Of a stretch of 64,000 bases of DNA, positions 3,560 to 55,559 are shown piece after piece (the first letter of the stretch is position 1; each line of letters begins with the position of its first letter). Both the position numbers and the translations under genes were made by a program. Origin of the DNA: Oceaniglobus trochenteri (GTDB taxonomy: Bacteria > Pseudomonadota > Alphaproteobacteria > Rhodobacterales > Rhodobacteraceae). The notes beneath the pieces are model-generated. The model did no database searches and had not been told where the DNA came from. It worked only from the letters and a program-made list of their open reading frames with translations. The stretch lies in assembly GCF_020529025.1 (NCBI RefSeq), contig NZ_JACNMM010000016.1:1-64000 (forward strand), written 5' to 3'.

Positions 3560-4099
3560 GTGGTTGATATATGCCCCACCAAGTCGCGTCGTGACGACGT
3601 GCAGTTCCGCAAGCCCGAAGCCGAAGATGGCGCCGCCATCTGGGCGCTTGTCGCTGCCTGCAAGCCGCTCGACGAGAACTCCATGTATTGCAACCTGATC
3701 CAGTGCGACCATTTCCGCGATACCTGCATCCTGGCCGAACTGGACGGTGAGCCGGTGGGCTGGATTTCGGGCTATGTCCTGCCCAGCGACGCTGAATCCT
3801 TCTTCGTCTGGCAGGTTGCCGTGTCGCCCAGGGCGCGCGGGCTGGGCCTGGCCAAGCGGATGCTGGAAAAGCTTCTGGCGCGCGACGAATGCCGCGATGT
3901 CACCCGGATGCAGACCACGATCACCAAGGACAACGACGCCAGCTGGGCCCTGTTCCGCAGCTTTGCCGACGCACAGGACGCGGAACTGGACCACGAGGCC
4001 CACTTCGAAAGCGATACCCATTTCCAGGGCGAGCACGACACCGAACACATGGTGACGATCAGCCTGCCTGCCACCGACGAGCTTGACGCCGTGGCCTGA
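3560..4099 (+). CDS. ectA: L-2,4-diaminobutyrate acetyltransferase
   Basis: Second step of ectoine synthesis: it acetylates L-2,4-diaminobutyrate from acetyl-CoA to N4-acetyl-DABA in the cytoplasm. The 179-aa GNAT protein has the family core KPEAEDGAAIWALV, LDENSMYCNLIQCDHF (about 38-52) and the acetyl-CoA loop RARGLGLAKRML at 91-102. No ATG is available upstream in frame after a stop at 3521; GTG 3560 is preceded by a GAGG at 3549-3552 and gives the usual length, while GTG 3599 is a shorter alternative. ectB follows after 44 nt with its own ribosome site (AAAGGAAA). Confidence 0.95.
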   Translation: MVDICPTKSRRDDVQFRKPEAEDGAAIWALVAACKPLDENSMYCNLIQCDHFRDTCILAELDGEPVGWISGYVLPSDAESFFVWQVAVSPRARGLGLAKRMLEKLLARDECRDVTRMQTTITKDNDASWALFRSFADAQDAELDHEAHFESDTHFQGEHDTEHMVTISLPATDELDAVA

Positions 4100-52609: not shown

Positions 52610-53370
52610 CCTGTCGTTACAAAGCCGCCATCGACGACAAGGGCCTGCCCCGTCACCATACGCGAAGCATCCGAGGCCAGAAAGAGGGCCGGGCCAACCA
52701 TGTCTTCGGGGCCGATGCGCACCGGAAGGGCCTGGCGGGCGATATGGGTGGAAATGTCGTCTTCGCTGACCACTTCGCGCAACTGGCGTTCGGTCAGGAC
52801 CATGCCGGGCGTCAGGGTGTTGACCCTGATTCCATCGCGCCCGAATTCATGGGCATGGGCGCGTGTCATGGCGTTGATGCCCGATTTCGAGGTCGTATAG
52901 ACCGGCATTCCCGCATGTCCCATCATGTAGGAGATCGACGACAGGTTCACCACCGCCCCGCCACCGGCCGCGCGCATGCCCGGCACCACCGCCTGAAGCG
53001 CAAAGAGGAAGGGGCGCAGGTTGATGGCGATCAGGTTATCCCATTCCTCGGGGGTGACATCCATGGTCGCATGGCGCCTGTCGTTGGCGGCATTGTTCAG
53101 CAGAACCGTGATTGGCCCGTTGGCCCGGGCGGCTTCGGCGATGGCACCCTGCAGGGCGGCGATATCGGTGACGTCGCAGGGTTGGAACCAGGGGCGCTGG
53201 CCGTGCTTGCGCTCCATCTCGTCCTGGAAGGCGCTGGCATCGCTGCGCTGCACGAAGGCCACCTTCGCCCCCTGCGCCAGGAAGCCGTCGGTCAGCGCGG
53301 CGCCGATGCCCGAGCCGCCGCCGGTGATGAACACCGATTTTCCGCGCAAATCGGGGAATGTTGCTGTCAT
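52606..53370 (-). CDS. SDR oxidoreductase, probable D-galactose 1-dehydrogenase
   Basis: The 254-aa classical short-chain dehydrogenase has the cofactor motif SVFITGGGSGIGAALTDGF (TGxxxGIG), NNAANDR, the catalytic Ser in LSSISYMMGHAG, and YTTSK (Tyr-Lys). Because its neighbours are lactonase, dgoK and dgoA, oxidation of galactose to galactonolactone is the most likely role; arabinose or fucose dehydrogenase activity is possible. ATG 53370 overlaps the GH36 stop by 4 nt. Confidence 0.85.
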   Translation of the reverse strand: MTATFPDLRGKSVFITGGGSGIGAALTDGFLAQGAKVAFVQRSDASAFQDEMERKHGQRPWFQPCDVTDIAALQGAIAEAARANGPITVLLNNAANDRRHATMDVTPEEWDNLIAINLRPFLFALQAVVPGMRAAGGGAVVNLSSISYMMGHAGMPVYTTSKSGINAMTRAHAHEFGRDGIRVNTLTPGMVLTERQLREVVSEDDISTHIARQALPVRIGPEDMVGPALFLASDASRMVTGQALVVDGGFVTTG

Positions 53371-55559
53371 AGTCGCGTTCCTTCGATCACCCACATGGAT
53401 TGTGGAAAGGCCCAGGGCAGGGTCAGGCCGTGTTGCATCAGGTACTGGCCCGAAACCTCGATATCTCCGGATTTCAGCGCGGGATCGCCGCGCGACAGGC
53501 CAACCGCATCAGCGCGGTTGGCAAGGTGCATACGATATCTTGCCCCAGCGTCAAGGCCGGTCAGGCGCAAGGGGCGCGGCGCGATCTGGGCGCTGGTTTC
53601 CGCCTCCCCCGCGAAGACGACGAAACGCGCGCCGTCGCGTGACAGCTGCTGTTCCGCGATCACCGAGGGATCGGCACTGTCGAGCCGCAGGATATCGCCC
53701 CGGCACATCCAGCCGCGGTTGGCCTTCCACCAGGCGGTGACCTCTTGCAGGACGCGCGCCTCGTCCTCGGTCAGTTCCCGTGGGTCCATCTCGAACCCCA
53801 TGTGGCGCTGCGCGGCCACCCAGGCGCGGAACCGGATGTCCAGAACCCGCCCCGAGGTGTGGCACTGGCGCGGGCCGACATGGCTGCCGGTGACGGCCAT
53901 GGGCAGGAACAGGGCGGCGTCGTGCTGGATGCGCAGGCGTTCCAGCGCATCGTTGCTGTCGGAAAGCCAGACGCGCGCGGTGCGCTTCAGGATGCCGAAG
54001 TCGATCCGCCCACCGCCGCTGGCGCAACTTTCCAGTTCGACATGCGGAAAATCGGCGCGCAGCCGGTCGAACAGGGCATAGGTGCCGCGCGTCTGGGCCG
54101 CATCGGGGGCGGGCAAAACGCGGTTGTGATCCCATTTGACGTAATCGACATCATGGGCCGACAGCACCGCCGCGATATGGTTGTAGAGGTATTCGCGCAC
54201 CTCGGGCAGGGCGATGTTCAGCACGAATTGCTGGCGCCCCGGGATCTGGTCGGCGGGGCCGAGGATCCAGTCGGGGTGGGCGCGGGCCAGGTCGCTGTCG
54301 CGGTTCACCATCTCGGGTTCGAACCAGATGCCGAAACCCATGCCCTCGGCCTTCACATGGTCGATCAGCGGGGTCAGGCCACCTGGGTACTTGCGCGGAT
54401 CAATCACCCAGTCGCCCAGCGAGGTCGTGTCATCATCACGCCGCCCGAACCAGCCATCGTCCAGCACGAAGCGTTCAGCGCCCAGGGCGGCGGCGCGGCT
54501 GGCGATGTCCTTCAGCTCGGCCAGGTCGTGGTTGAAATAGACCGCCTCCCAGCAGTTGTAATGCACGGGGCGCGGGCGGTCCGGGTGCGGCCATGTCACG
54601 ATCCGGTCGCGGGCGTGGCGCTGATGGGCGGTGGCGATGCCGTTCAGGCCGGTTGTGGAATGGGTGAGGTAGATCTTGGCCGTCTCGAACCGCGTGCCCG
54701 GTTCGGTTTCGCTCTGCGCGGCATGGCCGAACTGCACCTGGCGGCGGCCATCGGGCAGTTCCTCGGCAATCATGCGGTGTCCGCCCGACCAGCCATAGTG
54801 CAGCCCGAACGCCTGGCCCTGCGTGTTCGTGGTGCCCCGGCAGGGTAGGATCAGGCCGGGGAAATGTTCGTGCCCGCTGCGCCCTGTGCGGCTTTCGCGC
54901 ATGTGGATGCCGGGGGTCCAGGGGGTTCGGTTCAACCGGAATTCGCCGATCCACCGGCCCGAAACGTCGATCACCTCATCGGCAAGTTGCGGCGCGGGCA
55001 AGACGGGGGCGGCCAGCCAGTCGAGGTGGATGGGGTGTCCGCAGGTGAGTGTGGCCCGTGCGGTTATGAGATCGTCGTGGGCGGTGAAGGTGGCGGTGTA
55101 GGTGAGGGCGTTTCGCGCATCTTCGCAGGTGAAGCGCAGCACATCACCATCCGTTCCGCCCGGCGGCAGGCCGGGCATCCCCCGACCGCCCCCCCGGGCG
55201 GGGGCTTCTCCCCCACCCGCGACCGGGGGATGCCCTTCGTTTATTGTATCGGACGTTGTCACATCTCTGAGCGCAAATGTGGGAAGAATTATCGCCCCCC
55301 CACCATCCCGCAGCATCATCCCCGGCTGGCCGGGAAAGCTGCGCCGCGCCTCGGGGGACAGCGACAGGGGCGGGCTGGCATCCAGCATCCCGCCCGTCAC
55401 GTCCATCACCGCCGCCGATGCCAGCGTTTCCAGGTCTTCGTCTTCCGGCAGGGGCGCGCCCCAATAGATGCATTCGGGCAGGGCGTCGTCGCGGCTGACC
55501 AGGACAAGGGTCTGGTCGCGGGTATCCATCCGCCAGGCGCGGATCGTTTCGTCGGTCAT
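53367..55559 (-). CDS. Alpha-galactosidase, GH36, carrying an in-frame palindromic insert
   Basis: The 730-aa cytoplasmic enzyme releases galactose from melibiose/raffinose-type sugars. It has WEAVYFNHDLAELKDIASRA, FVLDDGWFGRRDDDTTSLGD, WFEPEMVNRDSDLARAHPDW, the nucleophile Asp in VDYVKWDHNR, and the acid/base region ESCASGGGRIDFGILKRT. In the N-terminal domain, residues about 107-135 read as EGHPPVAGGGEAPARGGGRG plus MPGLPPGG: low-complexity and encoded by nested inverted repeats, unlike the family. The frame is kept, so the enzyme may still work. ATG 55559 (MTDETIRAWR). Confidence 0.92.
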   Translation of the reverse strand: MTDETIRAWRMDTRDQTLVLVSRDDALPECIYWGAPLPEDEDLETLASAAVMDVTGGMLDASPPLSLSPEARRSFPGQPGMMLRDGGGAIILPTFALRDVTTSDTINEGHPPVAGGGEAPARGGGRGMPGLPPGGTDGDVLRFTCEDARNALTYTATFTAHDDLITARATLTCGHPIHLDWLAAPVLPAPQLADEVIDVSGRWIGEFRLNRTPWTPGIHMRESRTGRSGHEHFPGLILPCRGTTNTQGQAFGLHYGWSGGHRMIAEELPDGRRQVQFGHAAQSETEPGTRFETAKIYLTHSTTGLNGIATAHQRHARDRIVTWPHPDRPRPVHYNCWEAVYFNHDLAELKDIASRAAALGAERFVLDDGWFGRRDDDTTSLGDWVIDPRKYPGGLTPLIDHVKAEGMGFGIWFEPEMVNRDSDLARAHPDWILGPADQIPGRQQFVLNIALPEVREYLYNHIAAVLSAHDVDYVKWDHNRVLPAPDAAQTRGTYALFDRLRADFPHVELESCASGGGRIDFGILKRTARVWLSDSNDALERLRIQHDAALFLPMAVTGSHVGPRQCHTSGRVLDIRFRAWVAAQRHMGFEMDPRELTEDEARVLQEVTAWWKANRGWMCRGDILRLDSADPSVIAEQQLSRDGARFVVFAGEAETSAQIAPRPLRLTGLDAGARYRMHLANRADAVGLSRGDPALKSGDIEVSGQYLMQHGLTLPWAFPQSMWVIEGTRL
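55158..55235. repeat. Palindromic element inside the alpha-galactosidase gene
   Basis: Outer arms GGGCATCCCCC (55173-55183) and GGGGGATGCCC (55225-55235) are perfect reverse complements. Inside them, near 55195-55219, CGGGCGGGGG and CCCCCACCCG can form a second hairpin. Directly beside the left arm GCCCGG (55158-55163) pairs with CCGGGC (55171-55176). The cluster sits wholly in coding sequence and keeps the frame. Confidence 0.7.

Follow-up and report, generated by a model that had tools for sequence, protein, structure and literature searches.

Most discussion of palindromic repeats that lie in frame within protein-coding genes has concerned Rickettsia, a genus restricted to growth within host cells. 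As far as the cited parts of the literature go, the RPE repeats of these bacteria occur both outside genes and in frame inside unrelated genes, have sites common to orthologues, and encode segments in solvent-exposed regions; whether the common sites reflect a hotspot or a common origin is left undecided there (PMC3767692; PMC10969869). GTAG and CGTC REPs are described, in the sections of the source used here, as palindromes near gene 3′ ends, between convergent genes, and in some cases within genes, and Y1 transposases are proposed as the movers of the GTAG REPs (PMC3733652). Enterobacterial repeats of the RU/ERIC type are given in the cited excerpt as about 100 to 170 bp long and mostly intergenic, with open frames and with in-gene copies (PMC2759123). 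MITEs appear in the corresponding excerpt as short, non-autonomous, dispersed repeats that are able to form gene fusions (PMC10969869).

A habit similar to that of RPE is found here in other bacteria. The window (i.e., the whole 64,000-nucleotide stretch of Oceaniglobus trochenteri DNA analysed) contains a palindromic element in a GH36 α-galactosidase gene, which very probably belongs to a dispersed family of non-autonomous palindromes, about 85 bp in length, that are placed in trans and tolerated in protein loops. Like RPE, it is a repeated palindrome within open reading frames that leaves the frame intact, at sites common to orthologues. Unlike RPE, it is about 85 bp long, 80% GC, and three-part, compared with the 100 to 150 bp usually given for RPE in the cited parts of the sources; length is a weak sole distinction because one RPE-4 of 84 bp is tabulated (PMC3767692, in the portion cited). 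All listed genomes that match the element belong to its own family and not to Rickettsiales, and it is set apart from RPE by the descriptions of the latter. Its behaviour is like that of RPE, and membership fails on host and usual length. The RU/ERIC-type repeats, which have different hosts, are likened to it by description and not by sequence.

Structure and conservation of the element in the GH36 gene

The GH36 gene (53367..55559, minus strand) encodes a protein of 730 residues, in which a profile search identifies PF16875 Glyco_hydro_36N, PF02065 Melibiase, and PF16874 36C. These domains and a frame that stays open through the element confirm the position in frame within an α-galactosidase gene that was claimed in the original prediction. 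The element corresponds to residues 108 to 136, which are located in the N-terminal domain in a loop between two β-strands. The AlphaFold model of the protein, calculated from 32 sequences, has a mean pLDDT of 85 and superimposes on solved GH36 structures with a TM-score of about 0.85. Values of pLDDT below 50 are confined to residues 108 to 136 and four residues at 227 to 230, and the element segment is the sole long unordered stretch (more than 4 residues) of the predicted model. An AT-rich stretch (55238..55290, minus strand; 43% GC versus 67% in the gene) adjoins the element on its upstream side with respect to the coding direction. The flanks of other copies are likewise slightly AT-richer close to the element.

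The element is 84 bp long (55154..55237, minus strand), as delimited by covariance-model matches (E = 6e-13 and 4e-14, values that are rough by the tool's own statement), by an alignment of 32 copies with sharp edges, and by residue mapping. The limits originally given, 55158-55235, were nearly right; the covariance model places the edges at 55154-55237. On the coding strand, a 16-bp main stem encloses a 10-bp inner hairpin and is followed by a second hairpin that has 4 bases in common with it. The fold, the alignment of copies, and covariation define the 5′ arm of the main stem at element positions 3 to 18 (55220..55235, minus strand) and the 3′ arm at positions 50 to 65 (55173..55188, minus strand). 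The perfect 11-bp outer arms that had been noticed, GGGCATCCCCC and GGGGGATGCCC, are found at 55173-55183 and 55225-55235, and the stem exceeds them, with 17-nt arms of 88% complementarity. Two more hairpins had also been proposed, and the fold contains both: the inner hairpin CGGGTGGGGG-AGAAG-CCCCCGCCCG (55195..55219, minus strand), which is also seen in the copy alignment and in covariation, and the 3′ hairpin GCCCGGC-CTGCC-GCCGGGC (55158..55176, minus strand). The GCCC sequence is common to the 3′ hairpin and the end of the main stem, so the full forms of both are mutually exclusive. The calculated RNA fold of the coding strand has an energy of -60.3 kcal/mol, compared with -50.1 ± 3.6 kcal/mol for shuffled sequences (1 of 200 equally good; for the other strand, 3 of 200), and the GC content is 82% versus 67% in the GH36 gene.

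The 11-mer arm alone is unremarkable in the window (7 matches with at most one mismatch versus 5.3 expected), unlike the whole element, which stands out in its own genome with the E value of 6e-13. This value needs caution because the training set of the first covariance model, which consisted of 13 copies from a congener (G003) and 2 from the own genome, included the GH36 copy. Independently of the model, a second own-genome copy is found by plain BLAST at 88%.

The hairpin structure is conserved through compensatory changes. Among 32 distinct copies from 29 genomes, 96% of the cells pair, and 13 of the 29 pairs (34 cells) have both partners replaced in one or more copies; slides of one strand give 0 to 4 pairs and 0 to 6 cells, and values as high as those observed never occurred in 500 shuffles. 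Such double changes affect 9 of 16 pairs of the main stem and 3 of 7 pairs of the 3′ hairpin, the latter with 10 cells versus 1 to 4 in the slid controls. Little covariation (2 pairs) was present in a first alignment dominated by G003. Covariation of this strength could mean that the hairpin has a function, and it counts against the reading as a plain mobile repeat. Classical MITEs are defined by terminal inverted repeats and target-site duplication. The element differs from them because its 5′ end opens the main stem and its 3′ end is a separate hairpin, so that terminal inverted repeats are absent.

Distribution and genomic context of the repeat family

The genome of O. trochenteri contains three copies, i.e., that in the GH36 gene, one between two ABC-transporter genes that resemble livF and livG as judged by eye, and one on contig C27. 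In congener G003, 34 matches at E ≤ 0.01 correspond to 29 distinct places after removal of opposite-strand readings; of the other four congeneric genomes, one (G001) has a single match and three have none. At the family level, 138 of 295 genomes (294 genera) match the first covariance model. The original prediction had made a palindrome family conditional on similar elements elsewhere in this genome, and such copies exist. A second model, built from 32 copies, matches 104 of 196 genomes of an order-wide sample, and all genomes among the matches listed are from the same family (72 non-matching genomes are unlisted). In a class-wide sample of 289 genomes, all 3 matches are family members, which represent 3 of the 4 family members listed; the 266 non-matching genomes of this sample were not individually listed or assigned to families one by one. 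In one other genus, the element is present in 21 of 40 species, with 1 to 21 matches each. Copy numbers in the large scans are lower bounds, since 15 or 23 candidates were scored per genome; besides G003, the copy-rich genomes include G600, G678, and G710. As far as sampled, the repeat is confined to Rhodobacteraceae in the broad sense.

The length is 81 to 90 bp, with a mode of 85 bp, in 169 copies from a set preselected to 78 to 92 bp. A rarer long form (about 112 bp; range, about 108 to 113 nt) with an additional arm (CGTGCCGGAGGCACGCCTTCGGCGTGACGG or similar) after the inner hairpin is found in G003 (L130, L132, L133, L135, and L141). The element of G003 often lies within a larger repeat (L113-L141, L180-L208), with CCGCTCCGCACA ahead and CATCTCCGC behind, and with a further palindrome, CCGGAGTTTCCCAAACTCCGG, in several copies. 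A search of Rfam 15 with two copies and their flanks (L001 and L002) gave five matches up to E = 10, all of which were far below the gathering cutoffs, and annotators gain a model for a repeat that Rfam 15 does not match. Phage records gave no match at E = 1e-5. An exact 18-mer has one match in viral contigs, and this copy is in L179 (about 3911-3991), a contig classed as viral in IMG/VR. No description of this repeat family was found in the open-access literature, a search that subscription papers mostly fall outside.

The neighbours of 178 copies were assigned by a gene caller with a codon model trained on GH36 genes, which, on its own training set, accepts all 76 sense sequences, none of the 76 antisense ones, and 72 of 76 pieces of 100 codons. 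These copies are a non-random set, taken mostly from the tops of the lists of model matches (1 to 26 per genome). Outside G003 (152 copies), 39 are between convergent genes, 75 between codirectional genes, and 9 between divergent genes, while 17 are in a called ORF and 12 are incomplete. For 95 of the 123 copies flanked by two neighbours, the closest gene end is a 3′ end, at a median of 20 bp. Convergent pairs exceed divergent pairs (p = 2e-5), and in codirectional pairs 56 copies are nearer the 3′ end of the upstream gene, 18 are nearer the 5′ end, and 1 is a tie (p = 1e-5). These codirectional copies have no orientation bias (37 sense and 38 antisense). The 26 copies of G003 comprise 14 in convergent and 1 in divergent pairs, and those in codirectional pairs have no end preference (4 to 5). 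Within 10 bases past the 3′ end, 5 of 169 copies have a TTTT sequence, and 7 of 169 have one beyond the opposite end; the bases that flank the element show a slight excess of T (25% past the 3′ end and 28% past the other end, read outwards, versus 21% farther away). Nearly all of the 169 copies are thus without the T-run directly past the stem that characterizes an intrinsic terminator.

In-frame copies in genes of other families

Eleven of the 178 copies lie in frame within genes of seven families, a fraction that is only indicative because the set is non-random and includes some truncated and long-form copies. Besides GH36, the hosts are BchD (L222), ribonucleotide reductase (L303), an FG-GAP protein (L305), acetate kinase (L320), a ThiF-like protein (L315), and the NAD(P)H-hydrate repair enzyme Nnr in five genera (L308, L316, L327, L345, and L368). 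The six further families agree with the tolerance by proteins that had been predicted. Family models span or flank the element on both sides in ten of these copies and on one side in the eleventh, that of the ThiF-like protein. The 11 copies were counted from 19 spanning ORFs with a score over 20, and L187, L196, L297, L321, L333, L384, L386, and the broken L311 were left uncounted. In L311 (around 1000-1090), another ribonucleotide reductase copy, the frame changes within the element as sequenced, through either an assembly error or a real break, and this case counts against the main reading. Unusual Gly/Pro/Ala stretches that interrupt the alignments of certain BchD, Nnr, and GH36 proteins are explained by the element.

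The in-gene copies are read in at least four of the six frames, on both strands. At a GC content of 0.80, a mean of 4.81 of 6 frames are open in the element, compared with 4.68 in shuffled copies and 2.33 in the flanks. Open reading frames as a special property of the element were therefore rejected: protein tolerance follows from base composition, since the open frames are about as many as in shuffled copies and twice the flank value.

Among 22 aligned BchD proteins of one genus, the full segment is shared by 3 species, a fourth retains it in a shortened form that is still in frame, and the remaining 18 proteins are without it (the 22 come from 26 loci; three partial loci were set aside, and another is missing from the alignment). 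The pattern in these sequences fits an inherited insert that is wearing away. The Nnr alignment comprises 24 proteins, namely those of 23 out of 30 loci (for the other 7, no ORF was recovered) plus L368. Seven of them have a well-preserved copy, located in the linker that joins the two enzyme domains, and short sequences in some others are possible remnants. Two diverged copies, L396 and L398 (G209 and G208, respectively), have other stem sequences and a similar three-part architecture, one of them on the opposite strand; they may be sister subfamilies that the models miss. Among the seven copies, the identity of the element (0.76 to 0.96) exceeds that of the adjacent nnr coding DNA (0.65 to 0.77) in all 21 pairs, and this excess suggests repeated insertion or conversion, with the figure being inflated by high GC and by the counting of aligned columns only. 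The Nnr tree needs at least 3 changes, a number equally low in 72 of 500 shuffles, and one old gain with many losses also fits.

Origin of the GH36 segment and probable movement of the family

The segment of the GH36 protein represents an insertion. Its 29 alignment columns are empty in 79 of the 80 GH36 homologues taken from genome contigs, and together with the unordered state in the AlphaFold model this agrees with the proposal that about 29 residues are foreign to the GH36 N-terminal fold. The sole exception is a distant homologue from a Lautropia MAG (L110), with 27 residues at the same place. Its candidacy as a relative of the element was rejected, as 111 of 422 stretches drawn from that locus reach an equal score, and the unrelated insert suggests that the loop tolerates insertions. 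A GH36 match is present in four of the five other congeneric genomes, all four without the segment. One of the four, G004, instead has about 9 extra residues there, and their interpretation as a remnant, based on one 8-base match, was dropped because 68 of 675 same-locus stretches score as well. The nearest homologues have about 74 to 78% identity to the window copy, and an empty site with near-identical sequence was not found among the homologues compared. The original prediction named two findings that would speak against it, i.e., homologues from distant genera with the same segment lacking inverted repeats and the lack of a second genomic copy; both were looked at, neither refutes it, and its interpretation is supported.

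The presence of extra residues at the same place in the distant Lautropia homologue is what would be expected if the segment were an old part of the GH36 gene that other lineages have lost. The DNA of that insert is unlike the element, and copies at other places in the same genome and in that of a congener match the window segment at 84 to 94%; the reading is extremely improbable and is refuted by the copies elsewhere. A family of REP/BIME type, i.e., tagged single hairpins moved by a RAYT (Y1) transposase, would likewise be palindromic and scattered and would prefer gene 3′ ends and convergent pairs, as the cited part of the literature describes for REPs (PMC3733652). Such REPs are single hairpins of 20 to 40 bp with an unpaired tag, and CGTC REPs have stems of 8 to 9 bp (PMC3733652, in the section cited), whereas the element is far longer at 85 bp, has three hairpins, and ends without an unpaired GTAG or CGTC tag. 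Unlike GTAG REPs with their RAYT, it is also without a link to Y1 transposases: Y1_Tnp (RAYT type) was found in none of six congeneric genomes, including G003 with its 29 places, and across the family it occurs in 13 of the 138 genomes with the element and in 17 of the 157 without it (Fisher p = 0.71). Mobilization by RAYT/Y1 is thus unsupported at both the genus and family scales, and the REP/RAYT interpretation, already disfavoured, is highly unlikely.

Selection for an RNA element in the 3′ regions of mRNAs (a terminator, RNase barrier, or stabilizer), with the in-gene copies as accidents, would account for the compensatory changes in the main stem and 3′ hairpin, for the excess of convergent pairs and of 3′-end proximity among the 152 copies outside G003, for the weak enrichment of T just outside the element, and for copies between same-strand neighbours such as the ABC-transporter genes and TRAP transporter genes. 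Against it stand the equal numbers of sense and antisense copies (37 versus 38), the rarity of T-runs, and terminator-like matches that in the window are solely on the strand antisense to the GH36 gene; roughly half of the family genomes also gave no match to the element. This explanation of the family is rather unlikely. For Nnr, a single ancient insertion kept for function, and not repeated insertion, would explain the same linker, strand, and starting phase in seven genera as well as the possible remnants in other genera. The identity excess in 21 of 21 pairs, inflated as noted by GC and aligned columns, argues in the other direction, as do the diverged opposite-strand copy in another genus and one copy that is displaced by about 7 residues, and we regard the single insertion as doubtful. 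We tentatively propose, with somewhat less than even confidence, that a mobile palindrome of the whole family has repeatedly supplied coding linkers, and that different genera independently gained the same 28-residue, hairpin-coded segment in the Nnr linker and in loops of other metabolic enzymes, through an enzyme that places hairpins without target duplication. If this is true, protein-coding palindromes would be a general route to protein insertions and not a peculiarity of Rickettsiales.

The copies are more scattered, alike, and structured than chance would explain; they are also gene-free, and about half of the family genomes gave no match. They are most simply read as a non-autonomous element that is moved in trans. 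Under this reading, an enzyme acting in trans would place copies at new sites, and most of the lasting copies would be near the 3′ ends of genes, since a stable hairpin is nearly harmless there. In-frame survival would be possible because an element of about 80% GC seldom has stop codons in any frame, and a copy whose net length is a multiple of three, once inserted in a loop or linker that tolerates it, would become a disordered, Gly/Pro/Ala-rich segment of the protein, as would be the case in GH36. Such copies are presumably translated, probably with a near-neutral effect on the enzyme. The scatter, presence or absence, and divergence of the copies point to transposition as the route of spreading. 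Neither the longest common substring nor a fixed offset gave a signal of target-site duplication in the 48 copies from outside G003 (mean common substring of 3.98 versus 3.87 in the null; 45 of 200 shuffles as high), and 23 copies of G003, the flanks of which are themselves repeats, have a weak excess (reached by 8 of 200 shuffles); the test covered 71 of 78 copies. A 9-bp repeat beside the third own-genome copy (L185) is an isolated case and may be due to chance.

Presence and absence of the element between relatives are seen on Leisingera plasmids. Five L. aquaemixtae records have a copy between two TRAP transporter genes, and the same interval is without a copy in four other Leisingera records (of 12 with shorter matches there). 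The surrounding intergenic DNA differs as well, so the junction is not clean. In two of the five L. aquaemixtae copies, about 25 bp are lost between short direct repeats within the element. Hosts such as Leisingera species, with their complete plasmids, would allow direct tests of the movement of the repeat, the uptake of a 28-residue disordered insert, and the seeding of linkers. In another interval of Leisingera plasmids, between an oxidoreductase gene and a death-on-curing toxin gene, the element is found in L262, L263, and L265, and another G+C-rich stretch is found in its place in L177, L261, and L264.
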